Below, piece after piece: positions 3,705-38,123 of a DNA stretch of 64,000 nt; position 1 is the first letter of the stretch, and each line of letters opens with the position of its first letter. The DNA is taken from assembly GCA_004017535.1 (NCBI GenBank), contig SAJS01000017.1, positions 1-64,000 on the forward strand. Direction: 5' to 3'. Both the position numbers and the translations under genes were made by a program. Origin of the DNA: Mesorhizobium sp. GTDB taxonomy: Bacteria; Pseudomonadota; Alphaproteobacteria; Rhizobiales; Rhizobiaceae. The notes under the pieces were generated by a model. That model was not told the origin of the DNA, did not search any database, and worked only from the letters and a program-made list of their open reading frames with translations.

Positions 3705-3718
3705 TTGACCCGTATCAA
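3705..3718 (+). promoter_or_regulatory. FNR/FixK-type box upstream of the arc operon
   Basis: TTGACCCGTATCAA matches TTGA-N6-TCAA exactly and lies 59 nt before the antiporter ATG. This placement suits activation of the antiporter-arcABC operon under low oxygen, as Anr does for arcDABC in Pseudomonas. Confidence 0.85.
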
Positions 3719-3777
3719 AGCTGCCGACCCGCTTTCCTGTTGAATGGCCTCCATCATTGCAAAGGTGGGAGGGCCTC

Positions 3778-5247
3778 ATGGCCACAACAGACATCAACGT
3801 CCCTATCCGGGAAAAAATCGCGACCCCGGCTTCGGCGAAGCTCCGGCTGGGGTCGCTGACCGCGCTCGTCATCGGCTCAATGGTCGGCTCGGGCGTCTTC
3901 AGCCTGCCCCAGAACATGGCGGCCGGCGCCGGTCCGCTGGCGATCCTGATCGGTTGGGCCATCACGGCGGTCGGCATGCTTGCGCTGGTGTTTGTCTACC
4001 AGTCGCTGGCGGTGCGCCGTCCCGACCTCGACGCCGGCCCCTACGCCTATGCCAAGGCCGGCTTCGGTCCGTTCGTAGGCTTCAACAGCGCCTGGGGCTA
4101 TTGGATCAGCGCATGGGTCGGCAACGTCTCCTACGCGGTGATCGTTTTCAGCGCGCTGTCCTATTTCTTCCCCGCCTTTGGTGACGGAAACACGTGGCAG
4201 GCGGTGCTCGGCGCATCGATCCTGCTGTGGCTCATCCACGTTCTGATCCTGGCGGGCATTCGTCAGGCGGCCGTCGTCAACACCATCGTGACCGTGGCCA
4301 AGATCGCGCCTGTCGTCCTGTTCGTCGGGGTCGTCGCCGTCGCGTTCAAGCTCAATGTCTGGACACTCGACTTCAGCGGGCTCGGCAACGCCTCGCTCGG
4401 CCCCATCGCCGCCCAGGTCAAGAGCACGATGCTGGTGACACTGTGGGTGTTCATCGGCATCGAAGGCGCCAGCGTTTTCTCCGCCCGGGCGGAGCGCCGC
4501 AAGGACATTGCCACAGCGACTGTGCTCGGCTTCTTCACCTGCCTCGCGCTCTATGCGCTTGTCTCGCTGCTTTCGCTCGGCATTCTGAGCCAGCCCGAAC
4601 TTGCCGCCCTGAAGAACCCGTCGATGGCGGGCGTGCTGGAGGCGGTCGTCGGACCCTGGGGCGCCGTGCTCATCAATCTCGCGCTCGTCATCTCTGTCGT
4701 CGGCGCCTTCCTGAGCTGGACGCTGCTTGCGGCGGAGGTTCCGCATGTCGCCGGAAAGGATGGGACCATGCCGAAGTTCTTCGGCCGGGAAAGCGAGCGC
4801 GGCGTTCCTTCGACGTCGCTACTGATCACCAACCTGCTCGTCCAGGCCTTCCTGGTGATCACGCTCTTTGCCCAGAGCACCTACCAGGCGCTCTTCTACA
4901 TCGCTTCGACCGCGATCCTCGTGCCTTACATTTTCTCCGGGGCCTTCGCCGCGAAACTGGCTTTGACCGGAGAAAGCTACCAAGGCGGCGAAAGGCGCAC
5001 CGGACCGCTCGTCGCCGGCGTGCTGGCAACGATCTATGGGCTGTGGCTCGTCTATGCGGCGGGGCCTGCGTACCTCTTCATGTGCGCGATCCTCTATGCC
5101 CCGGGCATCATCTTCTACGTATGGGCTCGCCGCGAGGGCAACCAGCGTGTCTTCCACCCGGTGGAAGCCATCATCGCCGTCGCGCTCGTCGCGGTCGCGA
5201 TCCTTGCCGTCTACGAGATGTGGACCGGCGCTGTCAGCGCGCTTTGA
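3778..5247 (+). CDS. arcD: APC-family amino acid antiporter, probably arginine/ornithine
   Basis: A polytopic permease of 489 aa of the basic amino acid/polyamine antiporter family. The first helix carries [19 protein letters not shown], with the GSGVF substrate-binding loop, followed by about 11 further helices. It heads an operon with arginine deiminase, ornithine carbamoyltransferase and carbamate kinase, so electroneutral arginine/ornithine exchange is the natural role. Start ATG 3778 follows GGGAGG at about 3767-3772; an earlier in-frame TTG is weaker. The gap to arcA is only 11 nt. Substrate is inferred from context. Confidence 0.85.
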
Positions 5248-5258
5248 GAGGCCATACA

Positions 5259-6473
5259 ATGACAAATCTGGGAGTGCATTCGGAGGTCGGCCGCCTGCGC
5301 GAGGTCATGGTCCACAGGCCGGATCTCAGCCTGCGCAGGCTAACGCCGGATAACTGCAAGGCGCTGCTGTTCGACGACGTGTTGTGGGTAAAGCGGGCGC
5401 GCCAGGAACACGACGTCTTCGTCGACGCATTGCGCGAGCGTGGCGTGGTGGTGCATTCGTTCGGTGAGCTGCTTGCCGAGACAATGGCCATCGGCAAGGC
5501 TCGCGACTGGCTTCTCGACCGCCGGGTGCATGCCGGCGTGGTCGGCCTCGACATGGTCGACGAGATGCGTGGCTGGCTGAACGAAATGTCGGCCGGCCTT
5601 TTGGCAACCTGTCTCGTCGGCGGTATTGCGCGCGCCGAACTGCCGTTCGAGCCCAAAGGCCTGACCGGAAGGACGCTCGCGCCGCAGGACTTCGTGCTGC
5701 CGCCGCTGCCCAACCAGCTGTTCACCCGTGACAGCTCCTGCTGGATCTACCGCTCCGTGTCGGCCAATCCGATGTATTGGCCGGCCAGGCGGCCGGAGGC
5801 GGCCAATGTCGAGGCTGTCTACCGCTTCCATCCAAGGTTCCGCGACAGCGGCATCCCGTTCGTCTCGCCCCAGGCCGGAACGGGCGTCAGCCTCGAAGGC
5901 GGCGACGTCATGCCGGTCGGCGGAGGTGTCGTTCTGGTCGGCATGGGCGAGCGCACCACGCCGCAAGCGGTCGGCGATCTCGCGCGAAGCCTGTTCGCCG
6001 CCGGAGAGGCCACGCGCGTGATCGCGGCTCTGATGCCGCGCGACCGTTCCTTCATGCATCTCGACACCGTCTTCACCTTCTGCGACCGCGACCTCGCGAC
6101 CATGTATCCGCCCGTGGTCGAAAGGCTGCGCACCTTCTCGCTCCGGCCGGGAGACGGCGATGCGGCGGTCGAGGTCAGGGAGGAGAAGGAGCCCTTCATA
6201 TCAGTCGTCGCGGAAGCTCTCGGGCTGAAATCGCTGCGGATCATCGCCACTGGCGGCGACCGTTACGAGGCCGAGCGCGAGCAGTGGGACGACGGCAACA
6301 ACGTCGTCGCCGTCGAGCCGGGCGTCGTCATCGGCTACGACCGCAACGTCTACACCAACACGCTTCTGCGCCGGGCGGGAGTCGAGGTGATCACCGTCGA
6401 GGGTGCCGAGCTTAGCCGCGGGCGCGGCGGCGGCCATTGCATGACCTGTCCCATCGCCCGAGACCCGCTCTGA
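5259..6473 (+). CDS. arcA: arginine deiminase
   Basis: Arginine deiminase, 404 aa, hydrolyses arginine to citrulline and ammonia, the first step of the fermentative arginine deiminase pathway. Visible family marks are [14 protein letters not shown] near the N-terminus, the guanidinium-binding [10 protein letters not shown] region, [12 protein letters not shown] (active-site His and Asp) and the C-terminal GGGHCMTCP with nucleophilic Cys394. Length is normal for the family. ATG 5259 starts 11 nt after the antiporter stop. The protein is intact with all key residues, so activity is expected. Confidence 0.95.
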
Positions 6474-6485
6474 AAGGAACCCCCA

Positions 6486-7487
6486 ATGTCGATCAACCTT
6501 CATGGACGCTCGGTGCTCTCGCTGGACGACCTTTCGGCGGACGAGATCCGCTTCCTGCTGAAGCTGGCCGCCGATCTGAAGGCAGCAAAGCAGGCCGGGC
6601 ACGAGATACCGCGCCTCGTTCGCAAGAACATCGCGCTGATCTTCGAAAAGGACTCGACCCGCACCCGGACGGGATTCGAAGTGGCCGCCTACGACCAGGG
6701 CGCCCACGTCACCTATTTCGGCCCCAGCGGCAGCCATATCGGGCACAAGGAGTCCATGAAGGACACCGCGCGCGTGCTCGGCCGCATGTATGATGCGATC
6801 GAATATCGCGGCTTTGCGCAACATCAGGCAGAGCTGCTTGCCACGCATGCCGGCGTGCCCGTCTACAACGGCCTGACCAATGAAGCGCACCCGACGCAGA
6901 TCCTCGCCGATTTCATGACCATGCGTGAATTCACGCACAAGCATCTGTCCGACATGACGGTCGCCTTCGTCGGCGAGGGTCGGGACAATGTCGCGCTATC
7001 CCTGGCGGTGGGCGCCGCCAAGGTCGGCATCGACATGCGTATCGCTTCACCCAAGCAGCTTTGGCCGGACGACGAGTTCTGCGCCCATGTCAGAACCCTG
7101 GCGGAGCGCAGCGGTGGCCGCTTCAGGCTGGACGAAGACGTGAAGAGCTGCGTCGAAGGCGCCGACTTCATCTACACCGACGTCTGGCTCTCCATGGGTG
7201 AGGACAAGTCGGCCTGGGCCGAGCGTATCCGCCTGCTGACGCCCTATCGGGTGACGAGCGAGGTGATGTCGGCCAGCGGCAATCCGCACGTGAAATTCAT
7301 GCATTGCCTGCCGGCGTTCCACGATGCCGAGACCGAGGTCGGCGCCTCGGTCGCGCGGGAATTCGGCATCGACTGCATGGAGGTTACCGATCAGGTGTTC
7401 GAATCCGGCGCGTCGATCGTGTTCGACCAGGCGGAGAACCGCATGCACACGATCAAGGCGCTGCTCGTCGCCACGATCGGCAATTGA
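6486..7487 (+). CDS. arcB: ornithine carbamoyltransferase, catabolic
   Basis: A protein of 333 aa that phosphorolyses citrulline to ornithine and carbamoyl phosphate in the arginine deiminase pathway. The carbamoyl-phosphate loop STRTR is at residues 57-61, HPTQ at 135-138, the ornithine-binding SMG at 236-238 and HCLP at 273-276. It begins 12 nt after arcA with a GAAAGGAACC ribosome site. Placement between arcA and arcC argues for the catabolic rather than the biosynthetic enzyme. Confidence 0.95.
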
Positions 7488-7488
7488 G

Positions 7489-8415
7489 ATGCTGATTGTT
7501 GCGGCTCTCGGCGGGAACGCGCTGTTGCGGCGCGGCGAGCCCATGACCGCCGAAAATCAGCGCGGCAATGTCAAGCATGCGGCATCCGCCCTGGCGGCGC
7601 TTATCGACCAAGGCCATTCGCTCGTCATCACGCATGGCAACGGCCCCCAGGTCGGCCTGCTGGCGCTCCAGTCGGCGGTCTCGACCGACGGCGCTTTCCC
7701 GCTCGACGTGCTCGGCGCCGAGAGTGCCGGCATGATCGGCTACATGATCGAGCAGGAACTCGGCAACCTCCTCAGGAACAGGTTATTTGCAACCCTGCTG
7801 ACGCAGGTGAAGGTGGACCCGCGCGATCCGGCCTTCGCGCGGCCGACGAAGCCGATAGGCCCGGTATACGATGAAGCAACCGCACGCCGGCTTGCCGCGG
7901 AACGCGGCTGGCAGGTCGCGCCCGACGGGGACAAATGGCGCCGCGTTGTGCCCTCCCCCAGGCCGCTGGAGATCCTGGAGGCTTCCGTGATCTCGTTCCT
8001 CACCGAACGGAAGGTTATCGTCATTTGCACCGGAGGCGGCGGCGTTCCGGTTGTGGAGGGCACCGACGGCGGCCTTTGCGGCGTCGAAGCCGTCATCGAC
8101 AAGGATCTGGCAAGCTCGCTTCTGGCGCGTCAATTGAAGGCCGACATGCTGCTCATGCTGACGGATGTCGATGCGGTTTATGCCGGCTACGGCACGCCGG
8201 AGGCCCGCGCGCTCCGGCACGTTGCCACGACAGAGATATCCGGACGGAATTTTCCAGCCGGATCCATGGGGCCGAAGGTCGGTGCGGCGATCGAGTTCGC
8301 CGAAGCAACGGGCAAGCCTGCCGCGATCGGCAAGCTCGAAGATGCCCTGGCAATCGTCAGGGGCGAGCGCGGCACCTGGTTGGAAGCCCCGGCCAAGGAG
8401 CTGCAAAACAGCTGA
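7489..8415 (+). CDS. arcC: carbamate kinase
   Basis: Carbamate kinase, 308 aa, transfers phosphate from carbamoyl phosphate to ADP, giving the single ATP of the arginine deiminase pathway. The amino acid kinase fold is shown by the N-terminal ALGGNALL, the [11 protein letters not shown] loop, the GGGGVPVV segment, and VIDKDLAS with [13 protein letters not shown] 7489 overlaps the region right after the arcB TGA (7485-7487), so the two are translationally coupled. Length matches the family. Confidence 0.95.
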
Positions 8416-10814: not shown

Positions 10815-11324
10815 CTAGCCCACGGCCGCTACCCCAATGACGTAGTTCTTTCCGTAGGCTTCGGCGCATTTCGGGCAGGTCGTATAGAAGAAATAGACGT
10901 CGCCCGGTTCCGATTTCCGGTCACGCGCGAGCCGCAGCATCTCTTCGTGCCACTGCCTTGCCTGGCTGAAGGGGCCTTCGAACACTTTCGTTACGAAGTC
11001 GCCACTCAGCGTCGTCATCTCTTCCTCGGGGACAGATTTCGAAACCGAGAAGAGATGTTCGCTGGTCCAGGGCGAGAGATCGCGGCTGAGAACGATGGAC
11101 TGGCCATCGGCCGAAGCGCCGGCATCGTCGATGTGCCGATTAACGCGCGTGAAAACGCTGCCCATGTTCACGGGGACATGCATGACGCTGTGCGTCACCG
11201 CTCTCACGAACGGCTTGTCACGAAAATGCAGCTCCTGATCGTCCCAACCGCCGGGGTTGAACTTCGGGCAGCAACCGGTCGTGTTCACGCTGGTATCGTA
11301 GTGTGGCGTCTCGTTCATTCGCAT
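10815..11324 (-). CDS. conserved cysteine-motif protein of unknown function
   Basis: A cytoplasmic protein of 169 aa with two cysteine motifs: [12 protein letters not shown] near residue 15 and [16 protein letters not shown] near the C-terminus. The CPKC pair could bind metal or act in redox. I recognise the pattern as a widespread conserved family that has been loosely called hydrolase, but no hydrolase motif is visible. ATG 11324 is preceded by a GGAG site; an in-frame upstream start at 11378 is less likely. It is divergent from groEL, with a perfect FNR-type palindrome in the shared intergenic region 86 nt upstream. Confidence 0.6.
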
Positions 11325-11410
11325 CGTCGTCTCCTGAACTGAGAGCCCGATCAGACCAGTTGGCGAGCCGGTCCTCATTGATTCCGGTCAACGCCGCCAG
11401 GAATGCACAA

Positions 11411-11424
11411 TTGACGCGCGTCAA
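11411..11424. promoter_or_regulatory. FNR/FixK-type box between the cysteine-motif gene and groEL
   Basis: TTGACGCGCGTCAA is a perfect 14-bp palindrome, 55 nt before the groEL ATG and 86 nt before the divergent gene. It could serve either or both. Confidence 0.8.
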
Positions 11425-11479: not shown

Positions 11480-13102
11480 ATGGCCCACAAACAGGTATTG
11501 TTCCGCTCGGCGGCGCGCGAAAAAATCCTGCGCGGCGCGACCCAACTCGCCGACGCCGTGCGGGTGACGCTCGGTCCACGTTCCAAATCGGTTCTGATCG
11601 AGAAAAAATGGGGCGCGCCCATCGTCTGCAACGACGGTGTGACGATCGCCAAGGAATTCGACCTCAAGGATCCGGAGGAAAATCTCGGCGCCCGCATGCT
11701 GAGGCAGGCGGCCGAGAAGACCGGCGACATGGTCGGCGACGGAACGAGCACATCGACCATACTTGCCCACGCGATGTTCGCCGACGGCGTGCGCAACGTG
11801 GTCGCCGGCGCAAGCGCGATCGACATCAAGCGCGGCCTCGACCGCGCGACGAAGCGGGCAATCGAAACGCTCAAGCAGATATCGCGGCCGGTCTCGACCA
11901 GGCGCGAGAAGGAACAGGTGGCGACGATCTCCGCCCACAACGATCCGCTCATCGGCGAACTGATCGGCGAGGCCATGGAGAAGGTCGGTGGCGAAGGCGT
12001 CATCACGGTCGAGGAATCGAAGACCACCGAAACGGTCCTGGACGTGGTCGAAGGCATGCAATTCGACCGGGGCTTCCTCTCCCCCTATTTCGTGACCGAT
12101 ACCGAGAAGATGGAGGCGGTGCTGGAAGACGCGCTCGTGCTCATCGTTGAGAAGAAAATCTCCTCGCTCAACGACCTCATCAAGCTGCTCGAGGCGGTGG
12201 CCAAATCGGGTTCGCCTCTGCTGGTGATCGCGGAGGACGTCGAGGGCGAGGCGCTGGCCACGCTCATCGTCAACCAGATCCGCGGCACCTTCAAGAACTG
12301 CGCCGTGAAGGCGCCAGGCTTCGGCGACCGCCGCAAGGCGATGCTGCAGGACATCGCCGTCCTGACTGGCGGACAGGTCATTTCCGAGGATATCGGCCTC
12401 AAGATCGAGAATGTGACGATGGCTCAGCTGGGGCGCGCCAAGCGCGTGGTTGTCGACAAGGACAACACCACGATCATCGGCGGCAGCGGTGACCAGAAGG
12501 CCATCAAGGGGCGCGTCGAGCAGATCCGGCGAGAGATCAGCGACACGACCAGCGACTATGACCGGGAGAAGCTCCAGGAGCGGCTCGCCAAGCTCGCCGG
12601 CGGCGTGGCCGTCATCAAGGTGGGCGCGCCGACGGAAGCCGAGATGAAGTCCAAGAAGGAAGCGCTCGACGACGCCATCAGCGCTACCAAGGCGGCCGTC
12701 GCGGAGGGCATCGTGCCTGGTGGCGGGCTTGCCCTGTTGCGTTGCATCGGCGCGGTCACCGAGGAAGAAGCACAGTGCGAGGGCGATGAACGCACAGGCG
12801 TCCAGATCCTCAGGCGCGCGCTCGAAACACCTGTGCGCCAGATTGCCGAGAATTCGGCCGTCGACGGCGGCGTGGTCGTCGCCAGGATGATCGAGGGCAA
12901 GGGAAATTTCGGTTTCGACGCCGGCCGCAAGGAATATGTCGACCTGGTCGAAGCCGGCATCATCGACCCGACCAAGGTGGTCCGCATCGCCCTGGAAAAC
13001 GCCGTCTCGGTCGCCAGCGTGCTGCTCCTGACGGAGGCGACCATGACAGAGATACCCGAGCCGGCAAAGGAGCGCGCGCTTGAGCCGGAAATGCCGATGT
13101 AG
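11480..13102 (+). CDS. groEL: GroEL chaperonin paralogue, stand-alone
   Basis: A 60-kDa chaperonin of 540 aa covering the equatorial, intermediate and apical domains. The ATP-binding GDGTST segment sits after [18 protein letters not shown] is in the apical-intermediate region, and the second ATP-site region [11 protein letters not shown] with [11 protein letters not shown] is intact. Two points are unusual: no groES is next to it, and the C-terminus ends in an acidic/proline tail ([15 protein letters not shown]) rather than the usual GGM repeats. The FNR-type box upstream suggests a low-oxygen chaperonin that borrows GroES from elsewhere in the genome. ATG 11480 gives the canonical N-terminus. 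Confidence 0.95.
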
Positions 13103-13988: not shown

Positions 13989-16348
13989 ACGTCCTCGACA
14001 TCAAGGTGGTGCGCGATCTCTGGTCGATGCGGCTTCAGCTTCTCAGCATCGCAATGCTCGTCGCCGCGGGCGTGGCAGTCTTCGTGATGTCGGTGTCGAA
14101 TTACCGGTCGCTTATTGGCGCCATGGAAAGCCACTACCGCAACGAGCGCTTCGCCGACCTCTTTGCCGGCACAACGCGCGCTCCGCTGGTCATCGCTGAC
14201 CGACTGCGTGAGATCGATGGGATCGGGATCGTCGAGCCGCGGGTTGCGAAGCCAGTGCGGATAATACGCGAGGACACGAACCTGCCGATCTCGGGCCGCA
14301 TCATCTCGCTGCCAGCCGATGGGCAGCCTCTGCTCAATCGTCTCCATCTGGTGCAAGGGCGCTGGCCCGATCCGTTGCATCCCGAAGAAGTCATCATCAA
14401 CGCAGCGTATGCCGAGGCACGTGCCGTGCGAATGGGAGAACCCATTGAGGTCGTCCTCAACGGGCGCCTGCAGGATTTTCGCGTCGTCGGCTCCGCCTTG
14501 TCACCCGAGTTCGTCTTTGCCACGCGAAGCGCGGTGCCGCTTCCCGACGATCGCAACTTCGTCGTGCTGTGGGCAGGTGAGGATGCGGTGGCCAGTGCGT
14601 TCGACATGAAAGGCGCGTTCAACGACGTGGCGATGACGATAGCTCCGGGGTCAAGCGTGCGGCATGTGCTGGATGAGTTGGACCGCCTGCTGGCTCCATA
14701 CGGCGGAACGGGAGCCTACGATCGCGGCGATCAGCCCTCGCACCGCTTTCTTGAGGATGAGCTGGCAGAGCAGGAAACCTTGAGCATCTTCATGCCGTCC
14801 GTCTTCTTCGGCATCGCGGCGTTTCTCCTTAACGTCGTCATCGGCAGAATGGTTGAAGCGCAACGCGGTCAGATCGCTTCGCTCAAGGCATTGGGATTCG
14901 CCAACGGCACGATCGCGCTTCATTACTTCAAATTGGTCACGGCCATCGCGCTGCTGGGATCGGCCGTAGGCCTCGTCCTCGGATGCTGGTTCGCCGTTGG
15001 CGTCGTGGGAAGCTATCGCGCCTTCTTCCGATTTCCTTCGCTCGACGCGCGGTTCGAGCCGTGGCTTCTCGTTGCCGCGACGCTGGTCAGTGTCGTCGCC
15101 GCGAACCTTGCGGCTGCGACATCGGTGTATCGAATAGCTGTGCTTCCACCCGCCGAAGCCATGCGACCCGCAACCCCGCCTGCTCTGCAGACCTTCGCCT
15201 GGCTCCAGACGATAGGGAGCCGCGTCATTCCGCTGCAGTATATCATTGCGGCCCGCACAACGCTGGGCAGGCCGATCAGGACGGTGCTGTCGACCATCGG
15301 CATCGCCCTTGCCATTCCACTTATCCTGTTTGGGCTCTACTGGTTCGATGCCATCGACTACATGATCGACGTCAGCTTCAGCCGGGTCGAGCGCGGCGAC
15401 GCCTTTCTCACCTTCACCGAACCTGTTTCCACGGACACACTCCACGAGTTGAAGGCGCTTCCCGGAGTGCTGAATGCTGAACTCCAGAGAGTGGTTCCTG
15501 TGAGATTGCGAGTGGGGTACCGGACCTATCGCACGTCGGCCATTGGCCTGGACCCCGGCTCCGAGCTCAGAGTTCCCAGGGACAAGGCATTGCAGCCAAT
15601 CTCCATTCCGGCAGACGGCATCATGCTGAGCCGGCAGATCGCGAGCCAACTCGATCTCCATGTGGGCGACACTGTGTCGATTGACGTACTTGAAGGCGCC
15701 AGAGCGGTAAGGGAACTCATCGTCCGCAGGATTTCCGACGACATCTTGGGATCGTCGGTGACCATGGACCGCAGTGCGCTCAATCACGTGATGAGGGAAG
15801 GTCCTGTAGCAAATGTCGCGGCTCTCAGGATTGACCCGGCTCAATCCGAACTGGTCTGGTCCAGGATAAAGTCGATGCCAAGGATAGAGGGAAGCTCGGT
15901 AAAGGCTCTGTGGCTGTCACTGTTCAACGACACGATCGGCGGAATGGTGCTGATCGGCGCGCTGATCCTGGCGGGGTTCGGAATGCTGATCGCGATAGGT
16001 GTCGTCTATAACAGCGCACGCATTGCCCTGCAGGAGCGCGCATGGGAACTGGCCGGTCTGCGCATTATCGGACTGACTCGGCGCGAAGTGTCGGCGGTCA
16101 TTGTAAGCGAGCTTGTCGCCGAGCTTGTCGTGGCGATTCCATTGGGACTCCTGATCGGTCGCTACCTGATCGAGCTGATTGCCTCTGCCCGAGCGAGCCA
16201 ATCGTTCCAAATTCCCGCTGTGATCGATCCGAGCAGTTACGTCATAGCCTCGCTCCTGGTGATCGCCGCGGCTTTCGCCAGTTTCATCATGGTCCGGCGA
16301 AGGATCGATACGCTCGATCTGGTAGCCGTCCTGAAGACCCGAGACTGA
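13985..16348 (+). CDS. ABC transporter permease, FtsX/MacB type with two FtsX units
   Basis: A permease of 787 aa. A first helix at about residues 18-36 is followed by a periplasmic domain. Helices near residues 280-410 make one FtsX-like unit, and a second periplasmic domain and FtsX unit end in [11 protein letters not shown]. The duplicated ten-helix layout resembles the long LolC/YbbP-type permeases. The start is GTG at 13985 (or 13982), overlapping the ATPase stop. With the ATPase before and the HlyD-like protein after, it forms a tripartite exporter or envelope-remodelling ABC system. Substrate unknown. Confidence 0.85.
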
Positions 16349-24800: not shown

Positions 24801-24801
24801 T

Positions 24802-25563: not shown

Positions 25564-26097
25564 ATGAAGGAATTGCCGCTTGCCGATGTCTACCGGCTGA
25601 TTGAGCCCGGTCCGGTCGTCCTCCTTTCGACGCGGTCCAGGCAGGGCCGCTCGAACATCATGACGATGTCCTGGCACACGATGGTGGACGTCGCGCCGCC
25701 AACGATCGCCTGCGTGGTGTCAAGCAATGACCTCTCATTCTTCGCCTTGCGTCAAACCAGGGAATGCGTGATCGCGATCCCTGCCGTCGGCCTTGCGGAG
25801 AAGGTCGTGAAGGTCGGCAATTGCTCCGGAAGGGATACGGACAAGTTCGCGACCGCATGGTTCACGCCGCTTCCCGCCGAACAGGTGTCGGCGCCGCTGG
25901 TGGCCGAGTGTTTCGCCAACCTCGAGTGCCGCGTGGTCGATACGCGCCTGGTCAACAGATACAATCTCTTCCTGCTGGAAGTCGTAAAGGCGTGGATCGA
26001 TCCGCAGCAGCCGACGCCAAAGACCATCCATCACATCGGGCATGGCACCTTCGTGGTCGATGGCGAGGTAATCCATTTCGAGTCCCGGATGCCTTGA
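25564..26097 (+). CDS. flavin reductase-like protein (FMN-binding split barrel)
   Basis: A protein of 177 aa of the flavin reductase/DIM6-NTAB family. Conserved pieces are VVLLSTRSRQGRSNIMTMSWHTMVDVAPP, which lines the FMN site, VIAIPAVGLAEKVVKVGNCSG, and CFANLECRVVDTRLVNRYNLFLLEV. It could reduce flavin with NAD(P)H or be an FMN enzyme of another kind; sequence alone does not say. It is alone between two FNR-type promoters. Confidence 0.85.
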   Translation: MKELPLADVYRLIEPGPVVLLSTRSRQGRSNIMTMSWHTMVDVAPPTIACVVSSNDLSFFALRQTRECVIAIPAVGLAEKVVKVGNCSGRDTDKFATAWFTPLPAEQVSAPLVAECFANLECRVVDTRLVNRYNLFLLEVVKAWIDPQQPTPKTIHHIGHGTFVVDGEVIHFESRMP

Positions 26098-26125: not shown

Positions 26126-26139
26126 TTGATCCACATCAA
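26126..26139 (+). promoter_or_regulatory. FNR/FixK-type box upstream of uspA (first of two)
   Basis: TTGATCCACATCAA lies 65 nt before the uspA ATG at 26205, a placement usual for an activating site. Confidence 0.85.
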
Positions 26140-26174: not shown

Positions 26175-26188
26175 TTGAGATGGATCAA
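26175..26188 (+). promoter_or_regulatory. second FNR/FixK-type box close to the uspA start
   Basis: TTGAGATGGATCAA fits TTGA-N6-TCAA and ends only 16 nt before the ATG at 26205, where a bound regulator could block transcription or translation start. Centre-to-centre spacing to the first box is 49 bp. Confidence 0.6.
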
Positions 26189-26204: not shown

Positions 26205-27032
26205 ATGAGCTACAAATCAATTCTCCTGAACCTCAACATCGACGGTCCGATCGAACCGATCACACGGATCGGCGTGAACCTCGCCAAGCGCTATGACGCC
26301 CGTTTGATAGGGTTATGCGCCGCGGATGCGCCGTTGCCGGTGACGATGGCGCCTGAGGGCGCGGCGATCGCCGCAGATATCTGGGAGCAGTCGCGGGATG
26401 AGATCCGACGCCGCCTGACCAGCCTGAACGGCGAGTTCGACGGCCTGGTGGCCGGAGCGGTCAAGACGGACTGGCATGGCGATATCGAAAATCCGAATCA
26501 CGCCGTGGCCCGGAGAGCCCGCATGGCCGACATCGTCGTCACCAGCGCTTCCCAGGGCGCGTCGACGGGCGACCCCTACCGCACGGTCGATCCAGGATCG
26601 CTGGTGCTGCGCGCGGGCCGGCCGGTCCTGGTCGCGGCTCAGGGCGCGATGGATTTGCCGGCTCGCAGGATCGTGGTGTCCTGGAAGGACACGCGCGAGG
26701 CCAGGCGGGCGGTGGCGGACGCTGTGCCGCTCATGGCCATGGCCGAGGAAGTCACCATAGTCGCGGTCGATCGCAATCCGGACGACTGGACCAGGGACAG
26801 CGTCAAGGATGTGGCGGGCTTCCTGGCCGGTCACGGCATCAAGGCGCGCACCGAGATCATCAAGACGGCCGATGATGAAGGCAATCGCCTCGTCGATTTC
26901 TTCGCCTCGATGAATGCCGAGTTGATTGTGTCGGGCGCCTATGGGCATAGCCGGCTGAGGGAGTGGGTGTTCGGCGGCGTTACCCGCTCCTTGCTCGACG
27001 AGGTGTGGCTCAATCGGCTGATGTCGAACTGA
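26205..27032 (+). CDS. universal stress protein, tandem Usp domains
   Basis: A protein of 275 aa, paralogous to the Usp at 21162-21989: the same length and the same TVDPGSLVLRAGRPVLVA linker, VSWKDTREARRAV segment and terminal SGAYGHSRLREWVFGGVTRSLL signature. I chose ATG 26205 (MSYKSILLNLNIDG); an in-frame start ten codons earlier lies across the second FNR-type box. Cytoplasmic. Two boxes upstream make it the most heavily marked promoter of the island. Confidence 0.9.
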   Translation: MSYKSILLNLNIDGPIEPITRIGVNLAKRYDARLIGLCAADAPLPVTMAPEGAAIAADIWEQSRDEIRRRLTSLNGEFDGLVAGAVKTDWHGDIENPNHAVARRARMADIVVTSASQGASTGDPYRTVDPGSLVLRAGRPVLVAAQGAMDLPARRIVVSWKDTREARRAVADAVPLMAMAEEVTIVAVDRNPDDWTRDSVKDVAGFLAGHGIKARTEIIKTADDEGNRLVDFFASMNAELIVSGAYGHSRLREWVFGGVTRSLLDEVWLNRLMSN

Positions 27033-27201: not shown

Positions 27202-27852
27202 TCAACCGATGGTGATCCGGTCTTCGACCGTCTTCACGCCCGCGGCCGACCAGGCGGCGCGCTCGGCCGCCCGGCGTTCCGACCAGGCATGCACCCGGCC
27301 TTCCAGCCTGACGGCGCCGTTGCCGAGAACGTTGACCTTGATCTCCTGCGCCTCGAGCTCCGCATTGCGCTTCAGCGCGTTCTCGATACGCTGCTTGATG
27401 TCATGGGTCGACGGACGCGGCTTGATCTCGATCTGGTTGGTCACGCCAATGACGCCGGCGAGGTGACGCACGGCATCTTCCGCCGCGCTCTTCTGATATT
27501 GCCATTCGACCTTGCCGGTGAGCTTGATCCAACCGCTCTGCACGCTGATCTGAACCGCGCCGCCTGGAATGGAGGTGTGCCAGGCGATCGTGTTGACGGC
27601 GCGCTTGGCGATCTCGTCATCTGCGGTCTTGTGGGTGCCGAAGGGACGCACTTCTATCTCCTGGGCGATGGCTTTCACGCCCTTGACGTTCCGCACGACG
27701 TCTTCGACCTTGACCTTCTGAGCATAGGTCGGGACATGGCCAGTCAGCGTCACGATGCCATCGTCCACCGCCACGCCGATATCGGCGGCATCGATGCTGG
27801 GCTCGAAGTCCAGCTCATCGATGATGTCCTGCTTCAGGATGCTGTCACTCAT
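27202..27852 (-). CDS. triple BON-domain protein
   Basis: A protein of 216 aa made of three BON repeats (about residues 1-70, 75-145, 146-216), each with the VxGxV...A...V..V.GV pattern, for example GIVTLTGHVPTYAQKVKVEDVVRNVKGVK. No signal peptide is visible, unlike OsmY, so it may be cytoplasmic. BON domains bind membranes or other proteins. ATG 27852 follows GAGGTGG. The promoter holds an FNR-type box 70 nt upstream. Confidence 0.85.
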   Translation of the reverse strand: MSDSILKQDIIDELDFEPSIDAADIGVAVDDGIVTLTGHVPTYAQKVKVEDVVRNVKGVKAIAQEIEVRPFGTHKTADDEIAKRAVNTIAWHTSIPGGAVQISVQSGWIKLTGKVEWQYQKSAAEDAVRHLAGVIGVTNQIEIKPRPSTHDIKQRIENALKRNAELEAQEIKVNVLGNGAVRLEGRVHAWSERRAAERAAWSAAGVKTVEDRITIG

Positions 27853-27922: not shown

Positions 27923-27936
27923 TTGATTGCCGTCAA
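27923..27936 (-). promoter_or_regulatory. FNR/FixK-type box upstream of the BON gene
   Basis: TTGATTGCCGTCAA fits TTGA-N6-TCAA, 70 nt before the BON start at 27852, in the gap after the ftsH 3' end. Confidence 0.8.
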
Positions 27937-27995: not shown

Positions 27996-29822
27996 CTAGG
28001 CGACCTTCCTCGCCGGGGCAGGAACCGAGGCCGCCCGACGCAGCGGCGGGAAATCGTCGGGCGTGATCGTCTCACGCTCGAGCAACAGGCTGGCCCCAGC
28101 CTTGAGTTCTCCAATCCGGGATCTGAGCAGTTCCTGCGCCGTGGCGAAGGCCTCGTCCAGCATCTGGCGGACGGCAACGTCGACCTCCCGCGCGGTGGCC
28201 TCCGAATAGTCGCGCTGGCGCAGCGACCCGTCTCCCAGCCATTGCTGCTTTTGTTCCTCGAGCACGGCCTGCCCCACGGCGGAACTCATGCCGAAGCGCG
28301 TAACGCTCTGGCGTGCGACGTCCGTCGCCTTGGCAAGATCGTCGGCTGCACCGGTCGAGACTTCGCCATAGACGATGTCCTCCGCTGCCCTGCCGGCCAG
28401 CAGCGCGACCATACGCTCCTTCAGTTCGCCTTCGGTGATCAGGAAGCGATCGTCGGTCGGACGCTGCATGGTGTAGCCGAGCGCGCCGATCGAGCGCGGG
28501 ATGATCGATACCTTGTGCACGGGATCAGTCCTGAGAAGCGCGGCCGCGGCAAGCGCATGCCCCATCTCGTGATAGGCGACCCTCTCGCGCTCCGCCGGAT
28601 TGAGCAGCCTGCTCTTGCGTTCGGAACCGGCTACGATGCGTTCCACCGCATTGGTGAAATCATCCATGGTCACCTTGTCGGCATTGCGCCGGGTGGCGAA
28701 GATCGCGGCTTCATTGACGAGATTGGCGAGGTCGGCGCCCGTGAACCCGGGCGTGATGGCCGCCACTTCACCGATGTCCACGCCCGGCGCCACCGCGACG
28801 CCGCGGACATGGACCTTGAGAATGGCCTCGCGTCCCTTCCGGTCGGGCCTGTCGATTACCACCTGGCGATCGAAGCGACCGGCGCGGGTAAGCGCCGGAT
28901 CGAGGATCTCCGGCCGATTGGTGGCGGCCAGAAGCACAATGCCGACGCGAGGATCGAACCCGTCCAGCTCCGACAGAAGTTGGTTGAGCGTTTGCTCCTT
29001 CTCATCCGCGCCGCCATAACCCGCGAAGGGGCTGCGCGCTCGCCCGAGCGCGTCCAGCTCGTCGATGAAGATGATGCATGGCGCGGCCTGTCTTGCCTGC
29101 TCGAAGAGGTCACGAACGCGCGCCGCGCCCACGCCGACGAACATCTCGACGAACTCGGAGCCGGAGATCGAGAAGAAAGGCACGCCCGCCTCGCCGGCCA
29201 CCGCGCGCGCCATCAGCGTCTTGCCGGTCCCCGGCGGGCCGACCAGGAGAATGCCCTTGGGGATGCGAGCGCCAAGACGCCCATATTTGTCCTTGTCCTT
29301 CAGGAAGGAGACGATCTCCTGCAGCTCGAGCTTTGCCTCGTCGACACCGGCGACATCGCCGAAGGTCACGCCCGTCTGCCTCTCCACATAGACCTTGGCC
29401 TTGGACTTGCCGATGTTGATCAGGCCGCCCATTCCTTGTCGTTCGGCGAAGCCGCGGAAAAGGAACATCCAGAGCCCGAAGAAAAGCAAGGCGGGCAGTA
29501 TCCACGAAAGGATAGTGGTGATCCAGTTGCTGTCGGTGCCGCCCGACACCTTCACGCCGGCCTTCTCGAAGGCTTCGGCCGCGGCCGGATCGACGCGCGC
29601 GGCGACGAAAAGGCTTTTGCCGTCCTGCGGCTGCTTGAACTGACCCTGGATGGTTGTTTCAGTCAGCGTGACGGAGGCGATCTTGCCTTCCCCAAGCAGC
29701 CGCATGACGTCACTGTAGGAGAGCTGCGCGACGTCACGCCAGCCGAGCCACAGCTGGAACATGCCCATCAAGACCAGCGCGAGGATGAAGTAACCGATAT
29801 TGAAACCCTGCTTCTTGTCCAT
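27996..29822 (-). CDS. ftsH: FtsH-type ATP-dependent zinc metalloprotease (paralogue)
   Basis: A membrane AAA protease of 608 aa. Two helices (about 8-27 and 101-122) flank a short periplasmic domain. Walker A GPPGTGKT is at 195-202, Walker [12 protein letters not shown] near 250, then the second region of homology, and the zinc site HEMGH at 418-422. It degrades membrane and regulatory proteins. The C-terminus ([14 protein letters not shown]) is shorter than that of housekeeping FtsH, and the context lacks tilS, so this looks like an accessory copy for stress. The nearest FNR-type box (30014) is 191 nt upstream and better placed for the other strand. Confidence 0.93.
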
Positions 29823-30013: not shown

Positions 30014-30027
30014 TTGAGCGAGATCAA
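30014..30027. promoter_or_regulatory. FNR/FixK-type box between ftsH and the ABC remnant
   Basis: TTGAGCGAGATCAA fits TTGA-N6-TCAA. It is 52 nt before the ABC-ATPase remnant at 30080 and 191 nt before ftsH, so it more likely drives the plus-strand remnant and NRAMP gene. Confidence 0.75.
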
Positions 30028-30362: not shown

Positions 30363-31670
30363 ATGAACATCGTCGAGAAGAACGTCAACAAAGCCTCCGT
30401 TTCCTCACGATCACGGGATTTGATCGGGCGCCTGAAAGAACATCCTCTCGCTCGCGTTGGTCCAGGTCTGATCACCGGCGTGGCCGATGACGACCCGAGC
30501 GGGATCGCAACCTATTCGCAGGCCGGCGCGCAATTCGGCCTCAACATGCTTTGGACGATGCCGCTTTGCTTTCCGCTCATGGCGGCGGTCCAGTCGATGT
30601 GCGGACGCATCGGGCGCGTTACGGGCAAGGGGCTTGCCGCAAACATAAAGGCGTTTTTCCCGCCGATCGTGCTCAAATTCGTCATCGTCTTGCTCCTGAT
30701 TGCGAACACACTGAACATCGCCGCCGACATAGCGGCCATGGGCGAGGTCGCGGAACTTGTCACCGGCATGAACAGGCATCTGGCCACGCTATTCTTCACC
30801 TTCGGCACGTTGGTCCTGCAGGTGCTTGTTCCATACCATCGCTATGTGAATTTCCTCAAATGGCTGACGCTTTCGCTGCTCGCCTATGCCGCCGTGCTGT
30901 TCACGGTCCACGTGCCGTGGAGCGAGGTGGCGCTTCGCACCGCATGGCCCAAGCTCGCGCTCAATTCCGACACCGCCACAATGGCGGTGGCAATCTTCGG
31001 CACGACGATCAGTCCCTATCTCTTCTTCTGGCAGGCCTCCGAGGAGGTCGAGGAGATGAAGGGCGCTCCTCCCCTGATCGAGGATGCCGCCAGATCGGGA
31101 ACGGAACTGCGGCGGTTGCGCTGGGACACCTGGAGCGGCATGTTTTATTCGGACGTGACGTCCTACTTCATCATCCTGGCGACCGCGGTAACGCTGCATG
31201 TTGCCGGTGTCACGAACATCGAAACCGCGGCGCAGGCCGCCAGCGCGCTGCAGCCGCTGGCAGGCGATTTCGCCTTCGCGCTTTTTGCGACCGGCATACT
31301 GGGCGTCGGATTGATCGGCGTGCCCGTCCTGGCAGGCTCGGCGGCATACGCGCTGGCGGAGGCCATGGGATGGCAGGAGGGCCTCGAGCTCAAAGCCAGC
31401 GATGCCCGCGGCTTTTACGGCGTCATCGCCGTCAGCATCCTGGCCGCGCTGGTCATCCAGTATCTTCCCATCAGCCCGATGAAGGCGCTGTTCTGGAGCG
31501 CTGTCATAAACGGCGTTGTCGCGGTACCGCTCATGGTGGTGGTCATATTGCTGGCTTCAAGCCACACCGTGATGGGACCTTTCACATCCGGCCGGGCGAT
31601 CGTCATTCTCGGTTGGATAGCAACGGCAGTCATGGTCGGAGCGTCGATCATGATGTTACTGCCCGGCTAA
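30363..31670 (+). CDS. NRAMP-family divalent metal transporter, variant motifs
   Basis: A membrane protein of 435 aa with about 11 helices and the NRAMP fold. Helix 1 carries GVADDDPSGIATYSQAGAQFG where typical Mn/Fe NRAMPs have DPGN, and helix 6 carries TTISPYLFFWQASEEVEE where they have MPHN. Loss of both the Asn and the Met ligands suggests a different ion, as in the NRAMP-related Mg transporters; the ion is not assignable from sequence. It sits 16 nt after the ABC remnant and is probably driven by the FNR-type box at 30014. Confidence 0.85.
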   Translation: MNIVEKNVNKASVSSRSRDLIGRLKEHPLARVGPGLITGVADDDPSGIATYSQAGAQFGLNMLWTMPLCFPLMAAVQSMCGRIGRVTGKGLAANIKAFFPPIVLKFVIVLLLIANTLNIAADIAAMGEVAELVTGMNRHLATLFFTFGTLVLQVLVPYHRYVNFLKWLTLSLLAYAAVLFTVHVPWSEVALRTAWPKLALNSDTATMAVAIFGTTISPYLFFWQASEEVEEMKGAPPLIEDAARSGTELRRLRWDTWSGMFYSDVTSYFIILATAVTLHVAGVTNIETAAQAASALQPLAGDFAFALFATGILGVGLIGVPVLAGSAAYALAEAMGWQEGLELKASDARGFYGVIAVSILAALVIQYLPISPMKALFWSAVINGVVAVPLMVVVILLASSHTVMGPFTSGRAIVILGWIATAVMVGASIMMLLPG

Positions 31671-31783: not shown

Positions 31784-31797
31784 TTGATCCAGATCAA
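31784..31797 (+). promoter_or_regulatory. FNR/FixK-type box upstream of chaB
   Basis: TTGATCCAGATCAA lies 76 nt before the ChaB start at 31874. Confidence 0.85.
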
Positions 31798-31873: not shown

Positions 31874-32083
31874 GTGCCATATGCATCGATCGAGGACCTG
31901 CCCCCGCCAATCCGCGAATATCTCCCCTTGCATGCAAGACAGATTTACCGGTCCGCGTTCAACAACGCCTGGGATGAATATGTCGACCGCGGCGAGAAGC
32001 GCGAGGAAATCGCCCACCGGGTCGCATGGGCCGCGGTGAAGCATCGCTACCGCAAGCAAGGGGATGCGTGGGTGCCGCTGTAA
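31874..32083 (+). CDS. chaB: ChaB-family small protein
   Basis: A 69-aa protein that matches ChaB across its length: LPPPIREYLPLHARQIYRSAFNNAWDEY, REEIAHRVAWAAVKHRYRK and a terminal Trp-Val-Pro-Leu. ChaB was named as a regulator of the ChaA cation antiporter, but no chaA is nearby, and many ChaB proteins occur alone in stress clusters. It lies downstream of its own FNR-type box and is followed by a second boxed small gene. Confidence 0.88.
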   Translation: MPYASIEDLPPPIREYLPLHARQIYRSAFNNAWDEYVDRGEKREEIAHRVAWAAVKHRYRKQGDAWVPL

Positions 32084-32102
32084 GCGATTCTTTTTCGATG
32101 CA

Positions 32103-32116
32103 TTGACCGAAATCAA
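32103..32116 (+). promoter_or_regulatory. FNR/FixK-type box upstream of a 71-aa gene
   Basis: TTGACCGAAATCAA lies 61 nt before ATG 32178 and starts 20 nt after the chaB stop. Confidence 0.8.
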
Positions 32117-32177: not shown

Positions 32178-32393
32178 ATGAGAAATGCCGTCGCGAGGCT
32201 TGTCGACACCTGCAACGCTGAGAGAAGCAAGGGATCGGACTTTCCAACCATCTGGAGAGATGTGCTGAAGGCGCATCCCTGCGTGCTCGGACAGCCGGTG
32301 CAAGACAGCGGCGAGGACGGCCCCCTGTTGAGGATTCCCTTGATCACCGGCCAGTTCCTCGTGTTCCTGGGTTCGAATTTTTCTCTCTGGTGA
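32178..32393 (+). CDS. small protein of unknown function
   Basis: A 71-aa protein with a charged N-terminal half (MRNAVARLVDTCNAERSKG) and a hydrophobic C-terminal half (LLRIPLITGQFLVFLGSNF) that could be one buried strand pair or a weak membrane segment. I do not recognise a family. ATG 32178 is chosen because the FNR-type box ends 61 nt upstream; the longer reading frame from 32064 would start inside chaB. Confidence 0.5.
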   Translation: MRNAVARLVDTCNAERSKGSDFPTIWRDVLKAHPCVLGQPVQDSGEDGPLLRIPLITGQFLVFLGSNFSLW

Positions 32394-32442: not shown

Positions 32443-32456
32443 TTGACGAGGATCAA
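32443..32456 (+). promoter_or_regulatory. FNR/FixK-type box upstream of a 206-aa gene
   Basis: TTGACGAGGATCAA lies 56 nt before ATG 32513. Confidence 0.85.
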
Positions 32457-32512: not shown

Positions 32513-33133
32513 ATGGTCGGCATTACCTTGAGCCCCGAGCAGATCCGAACCGCTCCGCCGGCGGTCCGGCAATGGCTGGAACATGAGATCGCGCATTCGC
32601 TGGGACTGGGTCCGTCAGCGGAACCAGCTCCGCCTGACGCGCCGCATCTAGTTGCCTGCAGTCCACAGGAAGCAGCGGCGATCTATGCCTCGATCCGCAG
32701 CATGCTCCCCGTCGTCGCCGTTTTCTTCGAGCTTGGCCGCGAGGGGACCATGATCGGTGATCAGGGCCTTGTCGCCTTCCGACTTTCCGACATGCTTCGC
32801 GACACGCGCCTGCCAGATGCGCGGCATCTCGCCACTTGCCTGGACGTGATCGACCGGGCCTTCCGCTTGGCGCGCCGCGACGATCACGCCGTGCTTTCGA
32901 TCCTCGACGCCGGAGGCTACTGCATCGTCGCCGAGGCGACCCGGCGAAGCGTGCTCGCCGTGTGGTCGCAGGAAATGACGGTGCAGCAATTCCCGGACGG
33001 CGCGGCGCCTGAGGGCGCCGAGATTTCGCCGGCCGAACCCTTCTCGACTTCCGGCACGCTGCCGCCTCAATCCATTCACATGGGTCAGTCTCTCGCCGAG
33101 CAGGCTACACAGCCGAACGGCCGACGAAACTAG
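32513..33133 (+). CDS. conserved protein of unknown function
   Basis: A soluble protein of 206 aa. It opens with ITLSPEQIRTAPPAVRQWLEHEIAHSLGL, a helical motif I associate with uncharacterised rhizobial proteins. A mixed central domain follows (SMLPVVAVFFELGREGTMI) and then a disordered Pro/Ser-rich tail of about 45 residues. No catalytic motif is evident. ATG 32513 follows TTGGAGACG and sits 56 nt after an FNR-type box, so it is probably a low-oxygen-induced protein. Confidence 0.6.
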   Translation: MVGITLSPEQIRTAPPAVRQWLEHEIAHSLGLGPSAEPAPPDAPHLVACSPQEAAAIYASIRSMLPVVAVFFELGREGTMIGDQGLVAFRLSDMLRDTRLPDARHLATCLDVIDRAFRLARRDDHAVLSILDAGGYCIVAEATRRSVLAVWSQEMTVQQFPDGAAPEGAEISPAEPFSTSGTLPPQSIHMGQSLAEQATQPNGRRN

Positions 33134-37174: not shown

Positions 37175-37579
37175 TCAGGCGGTTTCTATGGCGCTTTTGA
37201 TCGACATCACCGAATGCTTGACGAAGTCCTTGGCGATCTCGCCGACGAGTTTGGCGCTCAATGACGGCTGATAATGCCTCCGCATCTCACCAAGCGTGCG
37301 CGGATCGGCGATCACCAGTATATGCTCGCAGGCTTTCTCGCCGGCCTTATGATTAAGATAGCTCGCGATCGATGCGGCAAAGTCGTCCTCGCCCAACCGG
37401 GACTCGTCCGGGTTGGCGGTTGAACTGCGATGCCGCCCGCCGGACCCAGCGTGGGCCACTTCAAGGACCGAGTCCTCGACTTCGATCAGGTCGAGATGAG
37501 GCTCGTGCCCCTTATTGTGAAACAGTCGCAGGCTCTCGCCATCCGTAACCGCGACGAGAGTGCCGTTATTCAGGATCAT
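37175..37579 (-). CDS. host attachment-family protein (AtsE type)
   Basis: A protein of 134 aa of the family annotated as required for attachment to host cells (Pfam PF10116 by memory): N-terminal MILNNGTLVAVTDGESLRLFHNKG, a central linker, then HILVIADPRTLGEMRRHYQP, AKLVGEIAKDFVKHS. Despite the name it is a small cytoplasmic protein of uncertain function. ATG 37579 is 7 nt after GGAG. The FNR-type box at 37677 is 97 nt upstream. Confidence 0.8.
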   Translation of the reverse strand: MILNNGTLVAVTDGESLRLFHNKGHEPHLDLIEVEDSVLEVAHAGSGGRHRSSTANPDESRLGEDDFAASIASYLNHKAGEKACEHILVIADPRTLGEMRRHYQPSLSAKLVGEIAKDFVKHSVMSIKSAIETA

Positions 37580-37676
37580 GTGTTTCTCCAAGGTCGGATC
37601 AGCCGACCTCTCCGGCGCCGTCCGATCATTTCACTGCTGTTGCAAGGCAGGTAAGCCCGGATCGCCTCGCATCGCT

Positions 37677-37690
37677 TTGACCTTGATCAA
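37677..37690 (-). promoter_or_regulatory. FNR/FixK-type box upstream of the host-attachment gene
   Basis: TTGACCTTGATCAA lies 97 nt before ATG 37579, in the gap after the ArsR-family gene stop. Confidence 0.8.
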
Positions 37691-37717
37691 AGCCAGCCAA
37701 GGCGATGCAGTGACGGG

Positions 37718-38014
37718 CTAAGTCGGGCAGAAGGCGGAATGCAACGCCTCGATGACAGTCAGCACCTCCGGGCGGGTTATCCGGTAGTGAACCGTCGTCC
37801 CTTCGCGGCGGGCCTCGACCAGCCCGTCGGCCCTCAGTCGCATCAGCTGCTGAGACATCGGCACCTGATCGATGTCCAGGAGTTCCCTCAGCTCAGCCAC
37901 GGAGCGCTCCTCATTGCCGAGTGCGCATAGCACCAGCAATCGCTGCGGGTGCGACAGGCTCCGAAGCAATTCCGCCGCCTTGTCCGAGGCCGGGATCATA
38001 TCTTCTACATTCAT
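37718..38014 (-). CDS. SqrR/BigR-type ArsR repressor, persulfide sensor
   Basis: A winged-helix repressor of 98 aa. The helix-turn-helix spans about residues 37-62 (SVAELRELLDIDQVPMSQQLMRL). Two cysteines, Cys30 (LVLCALGN) and Cys96 (SAFCPT), are 66 residues apart, the same spacing as Cys42-Cys108 of BigR and Cys41-Cys107 of SqrR, which form a tetrasulfide bridge on exposure to persulfide. It is divergent from sulfide:quinone oxidoreductase, its expected target. I chose ATG 38014; an in-frame start at 38059 is possible. Confidence 0.85.
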   Translation of the reverse strand: MNVEDMIPASDKAAELLRSLSHPQRLLVLCALGNEERSVAELRELLDIDQVPMSQQLMRLRADGLVEARREGTTVHYRITRPEVLTVIEALHSAFCPT

Positions 38015-38024
38015 ACTCTTGAAT
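38009..38024. promoter_or_regulatory. ATTC-N8-GAAT, candidate SqrR operator
   Basis: ATTC (38009-38012), eight bases, then GAAT (38021-38024), the form I recall for SqrR operators. It overlaps the repressor's own start region, suggesting autoregulation; a further GAAT (38036-38039) makes the AT-rich region look like a larger repressor/promoter zone. Confidence 0.55.
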
Positions 38025-38109
38025 TTATAATCTTTGAATGTTAGATGCAAGCTCGCCATCCGGGCTCCCTCGAAGCCATATCTTACAACCGCGCCGGCCC
38101 GTTTGGAAA

Positions 38110-38123
38110 TTGAGCCTGATCAA
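38110..38123 (+). promoter_or_regulatory. FNR/FixK-type box upstream of sqr
   Basis: TTGAGCCTGATCAA fits TTGA-N6-TCAA and lies 61 nt before ATG 38185, so sqr may need low oxygen as well as relief from SqrR. Confidence 0.8.

Follow-up and report, generated by a model that had tools for sequence, protein, structure and literature searches.

Two kinds of described systems are among the closest relatives of the locus reported here. In brief, the lxa locus of Burkholderia cenocepacia, as described in later work, is a low-oxygen induced cluster of 50 genes that encodes six universal stress proteins (Usps), a BON protein and an alpha-crystallin, and the authors liken it to DosR (PMC6127331; PMC9733578). 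The FixLJ-FixK2/FnrN regulons of rhizobia use the site TTGANCNNGATCAANG (PMC4999443), given elsewhere as TTGAT-N4-ATCAA with activating sites at -32 to -34 from the transcription start site (TSS; PMC7888657), and this is the same box as found here. We analysed the first 64,000 nucleotides (nt) of contig SAJS01000017.1 (contig C8) of a Mesorhizobium sp. genome (assembly GCA_004017535.1), hereafter the window, whose left part carries many perfect TTGA-N6-TCAA palindromes in front of separate genes. We suggest that the window is very probably part of a FixK/FnrN-driven low-oxygen archipelago of separate transcription units, of the lxa-like kind. The kind is already known, from lxa-like loci and from FixK/FnrN targets; what is added here is this member, its size and its packing.

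In Bradyrhizobium diazoefficiens the Usps blr2761 and bll6069 and the host attachment protein bll5315 are marked as direct FixK2 targets, whereas the Usps bll2590 and bll4644 are not marked as such in the available part of the source (PMC6515984). The phbC gene is a predicted target in some Rhizobiales (PMC4999443); the main text of that source does not contain the terms 'universal stress', 'arginine deiminase' or 'groEL', and groESL appears in it as a NifA target. In the portions consulted, these sources on rhizobial FixK2/FnrN regulons describe no comparable concentration of separate units at a single site. In the open-access literature we found no work joining FixK, Usp and arginine deiminase in rhizobia, and a low-oxygen-activated locus of the lxa type together with rhizobia matched Burkholderia work only; either may exist elsewhere in print.

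The window holds 18 perfect TTGA-N6-TCAA palindromes (boxes), against a mean of 0.35 and a maximum of 2 in 100 dinucleotide shuffles. A first-pass annotation of the same DNA had placed 14 boxes, all at the correct coordinates, and had estimated fewer than one by chance in 64 kb; its total was too low by the boxes at 1687, 11378, 15831 and 22897. All 18 lie within 1-38123 and the remaining part of the window has none, nor were any TTGA-N6-TCAA boxes found in the following 40 kb of contig C8. Sixteen are intergenic, in a region (1-39709) of which the intergenic share is 9.96% (binomial p 1.2e-14); the other two fall in a phosphoribosyltransferase gene (1687) and an FtsX-type gene (15831). Thirteen of the 16 stand 50-97 nt ahead of a modelled start codon, much as the first-pass annotation had described (most boxes 50-100 nt before a start), the exceptions being 25435 (115 nt), 26175 (16 nt) and 30014 (191 nt). 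Gene starts are models made for this analysis, and those of the small genes after 31784, 32103 and 32443 were picked once the boxes had been seen; an alternative longer open reading frame (ORF), 32064-32393, would include box 32103. Two divergent gene pairs carry box pairs 33-34 nt apart (25435/25469 and 11378/11411), each box nearest one gene.

The whole genome (6.86 Mb in 73 contigs) contains 107 boxes, against 21 for a reversed-motif control (3.1/Mb). Thirty-eight of the 107 fall in three clusters:

Contig C8, 1-38 kb: 18 boxes, 472/Mb
Contig C11, 854-903 kb: 10 boxes, 206/Mb
Contig C73, 219-249 kb: 10 boxes, 338/Mb

The other 69 are spread across 6.75 Mb. A comparison of box density inside and outside the island, proposed together with the original list of boxes, therefore gives 472/Mb in the island and 10.2/Mb outside the three clusters. 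In 20,000 uniform placements of 107 boxes, the highest count in 40 kb was 9. Among 36 genomes of the genus, the 7 with the BON gene have 13.6 boxes/Mb and the 29 without it 10.4/Mb, also above the control, so most of the regulon is independent of this island.

The boxes and the genes around them are listed below; family names are Pfam matches.

1..654, plus strand: C-terminal 217 codons of an Aminotran_1_2 gene that we take to be hemA (5-aminolevulinate synthase), cut by the contig start
1687..1700, no strand assigned: box TTGATCTGTCTCAA in the phosphoribosyltransferase gene, 177 nt before a PNPOx-type gene
3705..3718, plus strand: box before the arc operon, -10-like TTGAAT at 21 nt
3778..8415, plus strand: arginine deiminase operon of amino-acid permease, arcA, arcB and arcC (AA_permease_2, ADI, OTCace, AA_kinase)
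10815..11318, minus strand: PF20603 'bacterial hydrolase' protein
11378..11391, minus strand: box 59 nt before the leftward PF20603 gene, -10-like TCTGAT at 22 nt
11411..11424, plus strand: box 55 nt before groEL
11480..13102, plus strand: GroEL-type chaperonin (Cpn60_TCP1)
15831..15844, no strand assigned: box in the FtsX-type gene, -10-like TAAAGT at 22 nt on the plus strand
20270..21989, minus strand: two Usp-like genes (Usp; the upstream gene slightly below the cut-off)
22042..22055, minus strand: box 52 nt upstream of the first gene of the Usp pair
22063..22828, minus strand: DUF3775 gene and a 119-aa gene without Pfam match
22897..22910, minus strand: box 68 nt before the 119-aa gene, -10-like TATTCA at 22 nt
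22926..25116, minus strand: phaC (polyhydroxyalkanoate (PHA) synthase; PhaC_N) and a phasin-like gene whose start is uncertain, up to 25254 (Phasin_2 match on 24802-25254 slightly below the cut-off)
25435..25448, minus strand: leftward box between phasin and flavin reductase genes
25469..25482, plus strand: box 81 nt before the flavin reductase gene
25564..26097, plus strand: flavin reductase-like protein
26126..26139, plus strand: distal box of the third Usp gene, -10-like TAGGGT at 21 nt
26175..26188, plus strand: proximal box 16 nt before the third Usp gene
26205..27032, plus strand: third Usp-like gene
27202..27852, minus strand: protein with three BON domains
27923..27936, minus strand: box 70 nt before the BON gene
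27996..29822, minus strand: FtsH-like AAA protease (M41)
30014..30027, minus strand: box upstream of ftsH (191 nt) and nramp (335 nt), with a -10-like hexamer 22 nt away on either side
30363..31670, plus strand: Nramp-type metal transporter
31784..31797, plus strand: box 76 nt before the ChaB gene, -10-like TATTGT at 21 nt
31874..32083, plus strand: ChaB-family protein of 69 aa (ChaB, 3.6e-21)
32103..32116, plus strand: box 61 nt before the 71-aa gene, for a start picked after the box was seen
32178..32393, plus strand: 71-aa putative protein, no Pfam match
32443..32456, plus strand: box 56 nt before the 206-aa gene
32513..33133, plus strand: 206-aa putative protein, no Pfam match
37175..37579, minus strand: baeRF12/Host_attach family protein
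37677..37690, minus strand: box 97 nt before the baeRF12 gene
37718..38059, minus strand: ArsR-type regulator
38110..38123, no strand assigned: box between divergent arsR (50 nt) and oxidoreductase (61 nt) genes
38185..39709, plus strand: pyridine nucleotide-disulphide oxidoreductase and YgaP-like membrane protein

Further island genes with Pfam matches are two FtsX/HlyD transport operons, a P-type ATPase and a cupredoxin. As far as Pfam goes, the genes named in the first-pass annotation are the right ones; its 'sulfide oxidase' has a general oxidoreductase match.

Distances to -10-like hexamers were used as a stand-in for TSS mapping: hexamers were scored at each distance downstream of the boxes, on both strands, with an assumed -10 matrix. 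TANNNT occurs 21-22 nt downstream of 8 of the 74 oriented boxes of this genome and 62 of the 406 of relatives, and at any other single offset from 6 to 45 at most once and at most 6 times, respectively. In the window, 16 gene-facing orientations peak in mean score at 21-22 nt (best of 55 offsets, z 3.3), while 13 other box orientations, scored in the same way, have as a group no peak at that distance; 7 of the 36 orientations were left out, namely those facing inwards in the two divergent pairs, both orientations of 26175 and the plus side of 30014. For the set, though not clearly for every box, the spacing would fit an activator centred near -41.5.

Two boxes, 49 nt apart, precede the third Usp gene. 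In Rhizobium leguminosarum, fnrN is activated through its distal box and repressed through its proximal box (PMC7888657), and by analogy with that repression the proximal box at 26175 may possibly repress the third Usp gene or give feedback there.

A search with the BON protein led to 29 related loci in Mesorhizobium, Rhizobium, Neorhizobium, Nitratireductor and unclassified Alphaproteobacteria, the best named matches being 95% to a Mesorhizobium metagenome-assembled genome and 91% to M. erdmanii. A box lies no more than 130 nt upstream of the BON gene in 26 of the 29, and the reversed motif does not occur in any related locus listed. For other genes we counted orthologs with an upstream box. 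Matches had to cover at least half of the query, and starts closer than 350 nt to the end of a locus were skipped; no ortholog was counted for the major facilitator superfamily (MFS) gene, the oxidoreductase and others. Every ortholog is boxed for groEL (6/6), the arcD-like permease (4/4), the 206-aa gene (5/5, measured on a longer reading from 32462), the 119-aa gene (4/4, one at 280 nt) and the PF20603 gene (2/2). With paralogs included, the Usp genes follow closely (usp2 18/19, usp3 18/19, usp1 14/18), as does phasin (7/8 within 350 nt); flavin reductase (4/6), ftsH (4/7), baeRF12 (3/6) and nramp (2/7) are lower. The operon-internal genes arcA, arcB and arcC have an upstream box in none of 6 orthologs. 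In the eight loci whose gene order was compared, that order varies and the boxes remain ahead of the same genes.

Three boxes can be judged further from a relative assembled as a single 6.69-Mb contig (G004). The place aligned with box 1687 has no box in G004, and none of the 6 PNPOx orthologs has one upstream; this box probably arose by chance. Box 15831 is retained in G004, as are the codons it overlaps, and a promoter within the FtsX-type gene is possible. Box 38110 has the identical 14 bases in G004, at 4943277, and 0 of 2 arsR orthologs are boxed.

The small genes after 31784, 32103 and 32443 deserve a comment. We considered these boxes as small-RNA promoters and dropped the idea, each standing 56-76 nt ahead of a small ORF; an Rfam scan of the window at gathering thresholds gave no matches. 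Overlapping ORFs on the minus strand (31718-32155 and 32175-32495) were rejected as genes. The 71-aa and 206-aa ORFs are putative proteins, proposed on the basis of conservation.

Which regulators could read these boxes? The Crp-type helix-turn-helix (HTH) family has 29 matches in this genome, 14 over the cut-off and 11 above 55 bits, and we read 12 of the proteins. Four of the 12 carry the recognition helix ETVSR, which we take to read TTGA:

C11:891889: FixK-like, ETVSR, without N-terminal cysteine cluster
C11:879315: FnrN-like, ETVSR and CX2CX7C
C10:36863: FnrN-like, ETVSR and CX2CX7C
C44:375257: FnrN-like, ETVSR and CX2CX7C

FixLJ-like pairs are encoded at C11:855820-858001 and near the end of C73. 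The latter (C73:245656-247777) has a membrane-type sensor and lies near a tRNA-Arg at the contig end. The C11 cluster encodes a COX1 protein in the FixN position, FixO, FixP, FixG and a metal ATPase in the FixI position, together with phosphoketolase, acetate kinase and NnrS. Here fixN, fixG, hemA and the fnrN-like gene each have a box, at 83, 71, 87 and 58 nt upstream, respectively; as these are textbook targets, they serve as a positive control for the motif. The boxes had been read from the start as FNR/FixK/Anr-type, and the half-site, the -10 spacing, the conservation in relatives, the ETVSR regulators and the boxed textbook targets all speak for that reading. It had also been said that the regulator is not in the window. 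The ETVSR proteins are encoded on C11, C10 and C44, and a correction is that a regulator cluster adjoins the counterpart of the window in a relative assembled as one contig (G004). A strong NifH family match lies on contig C13; these data do not tie the island to nif genes.

The G004 alignment places the window within a larger region. There, the C11 cluster has a counterpart that is followed by hemA and then by sequence matching roughly the first 33 kb of the window, pieces of C73 and finally the window stretch from 33 to 44 kb. Of the 94 boxes in G004, 39 fall within 4845848-4964063, an interval free of the reversed motif, and 35 of the 39 sit in parts to which this genome aligns. The window hemA is identical at 635 of 654 nt (97%) to a complete copy on C11 (C11:852835-854112), and G004 has two close hemA genes. 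The flanks of the housekeeping hemA of G004 match the left part of C11 on one side, and the other flank starts contig C30; C8 and C30 each start at hemA, and C11 runs through it. Two near-identical hemA copies were probably collapsed in assembly: the duplication would explain the break of contig C8 at the window start, and the C11 fix cluster would continue into the window. That C73 runs straight into the window was considered and dropped, as C73 ends shortly after the tRNA-Arg and not in hemA. The view of 'one island' put forward earlier is therefore right as to box density and too narrow in extent: the window holds part of the region only, its contig starting inside hemA. Window and fix cluster are adjacent in one relative, G004, and by alignment to it would be adjacent in this genome.

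A true recombination between the two hemA copies could instead have split the archipelago here, so that the window would not adjoin the fix cluster. This concerns the adjacency alone. In the assembly, C11 joins the housekeeping flank of hemA with the fix cluster, and reciprocal exchange between the copies would give the same loose ends; however, fix cluster, hemA and window counterpart stand in line in G004, and both C8 and C30 start at hemA, as a collapsed repeat predicts. We consider such a split unlikely, but worth keeping in mind. Far less probable is that the boxes serve another Crp-Fnr regulator, such as a nitric oxide (NO) sensor of the Dnr/NnrR group, and that NO or nitrite is a stronger signal for the island than oxygen. 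Such regulators have overlapping half-sites, NnrS and a multicopper oxidase (possibly a nitrite reductase) are encoded in the neighbouring cluster, and only 4 of the 11 Crp-type HTH matches above 55 bits are FixK/FnrN-like. Yet fixN, fixG, hemA and the fnrN-like gene have the same box, the other two clusters contain FixLJ-like pairs, and ETVSR is confined to FixK/FnrN-like proteins among the 12 read, the stronger ones of the 29 matches.

A relative of the BON gene is found in 31 of 146 genomes of the genus (this one included), with at least 62% identity in 27 of them, and the region therefore looks accessory. It is also found in 167 plasmid records, 92 of them typed conjugative; in 155 of the 167 the protein is less than 60% identical. 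This distribution would suit an origin of the clustering in inheritance only, the region having been acquired with its promoters and the boxes being partly functionless relics. We think this very improbable, slightly more so than an NO sensor, since box and -10 spacing are kept jointly across relatives with BON proteins 57-95% identical, and boxes remain with genes whose order has changed. Chance or base composition might account for a few boxes, two of the 18 lying inside genes, but for the set as a whole this explanation is refuted by the shuffles, the reversed-motif control, the genome-wide density and the conservation.

Several observations weigh against a FixK/FnrN-driven archipelago all the same. 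Many island genes have no box of their own and mostly have none in relatives either: boxed orthologs number 0/8 and 2/8 for the two ABC ATPase genes (ABC1_ATP and ABC2_ATP), 0/2 and 0/4 for FtsX1 and FtsX2, 1/7 for the P-type ATPase, 0/6 for PNPOx, 1/5 for DUF2267, 2/7 for nramp, 0/2 for arsR, 0/1 for the cupredoxin, 0/3 for phaC and 0/8 for DUF3775, although phaC and DUF3775 may lie downstream within a transcription unit. The related loci are non-independent samples. Boxes 25469, 32103 and 32443 score poorly for a -10-like hexamer, and the top score at 20-23 nt in the window goes to the gene-internal box 15831; both the -10 matrix and the helix rule were assumed. FixK, FnrN and their NO-responsive relatives are indistinguishable from the site alone. 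A related stretch of Rhizobium etli p42d has 5 boxes in 40.6 kb, and a plasmid stretch of Indioceanicola with a related FtsH has 1 in 41 kb.

On balance we retain the FixK/FnrN-driven archipelago. It is based on the density, position and conservation of the boxes, on their -10 spacing, on the matching regulators in the genome and on the adjacency seen in one relative. In brief, when oxygen falls, FixLJ-type sensors would induce FixK, and iron-sulfur FnrN proteins would turn active. A FixK or FnrN dimer would bind the TTGA-N6-TCAA 'anaeroboxes' centred near -41.5, so that RNA polymerase would be recruited to as many as 16 separate promoters, served by 15 boxes. These promoters are predicted to drive arginine fermentation, the GroEL chaperonin, Usps, PHA storage, the BON protein, FtsH and small proteins; the other part of the archipelago would supply the fixNOQP, fixG, fixLJ-like, fixK-like and fnrN-like genes. 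Binding, an oxygen response and a role in low-oxygen survival are thus what the sequence predicts. A role in dormancy is a fair hypothesis.

The window resembles the lxa locus in gathering many genes for stress response and metabolism, among them several for Usps and one for a BON protein; its boxes are separate, and its units are probably transcribed separately. As a proxy for the B. cenocepacia genes BCAM0275-0323 we used an lxa-like locus on a Paraburkholderia plasmid (Usps, BON, Hsp20 and Nramp genes, with an fnr inside), which has 9 boxes in 41 kb, control 0. It matches the window proteins Nramp (73%), BON (38%) and Usps (32-35%), and gave no match to the arc, GroEL and PhaC queries (E 1e-8, half coverage). 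Denser than the window is a stretch of the conjugative plasmid pSF45436d of Sinorhizobium fredii, with 21 boxes in 40.6 kb, control 0. It has matches to the window DUF2267, PNPOx, P-type ATPase, DUF3775, BON (69%) and FtsH (77%) proteins and, by annotation, ChaB, Crp/Fnr, host attachment, Hsp20 and Usp genes; it differs in its many other genes, and the stretch has no match to the arc, GroEL, PHA and Nramp queries. The DosR regulon of Mycobacterium tuberculosis shares Usps and the logic of low-oxygen persistence, a comparison of how the systems work only (PMC6127331). The window sites are of the Crp-Fnr type. DosR belongs to another regulator class, the NarL type, and has a 20-bp DNA site of its own.

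We tentatively speculate that the window belongs to a travelling low-oxygen survival kit, a reading we place somewhat short of an even chance. Cassettes of box plus gene would move and reshuffle separately among alpha- and betaproteobacterial chromosomes and conjugative plasmids; with the same reserve, they would stay clustered because inheritance passes on the cluster as a package, often with its own Crp/Fnr regulator.

A few other features were noted. ARAGORN called a tRNA-Gly at 8967-9059 in the MFS gene, which is doubtful and probably spurious. Part of ftsH (27996-29822) has about 72-73% DNA identity to FtsH genes on Klebsiella plasmids, which we take to be members of heat/stress-tolerance loci. 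An HlyD/AcrB-type efflux pair without its own box lies at the right end of the island (39795-44047), and an ImpA_N-domain (type VI secretion) gene opens the gene run after it (47292-63360), where there are no boxes.

For a genus of legume symbionts, the analysis points to as many as 16 promoters that probably belong to a single oxygen-responsive programme. Uncharacterised conserved genes are among them: the 119-aa gene with DUF3775, ChaB, BON, and the 71-aa and 206-aa proteins. The programme appears to occupy a compact accessory region, to which other rhizobia and Burkholderia-type bacteria have related ones, and the question of why genes that are co-regulated yet separately controlled stay together becomes directly testable.

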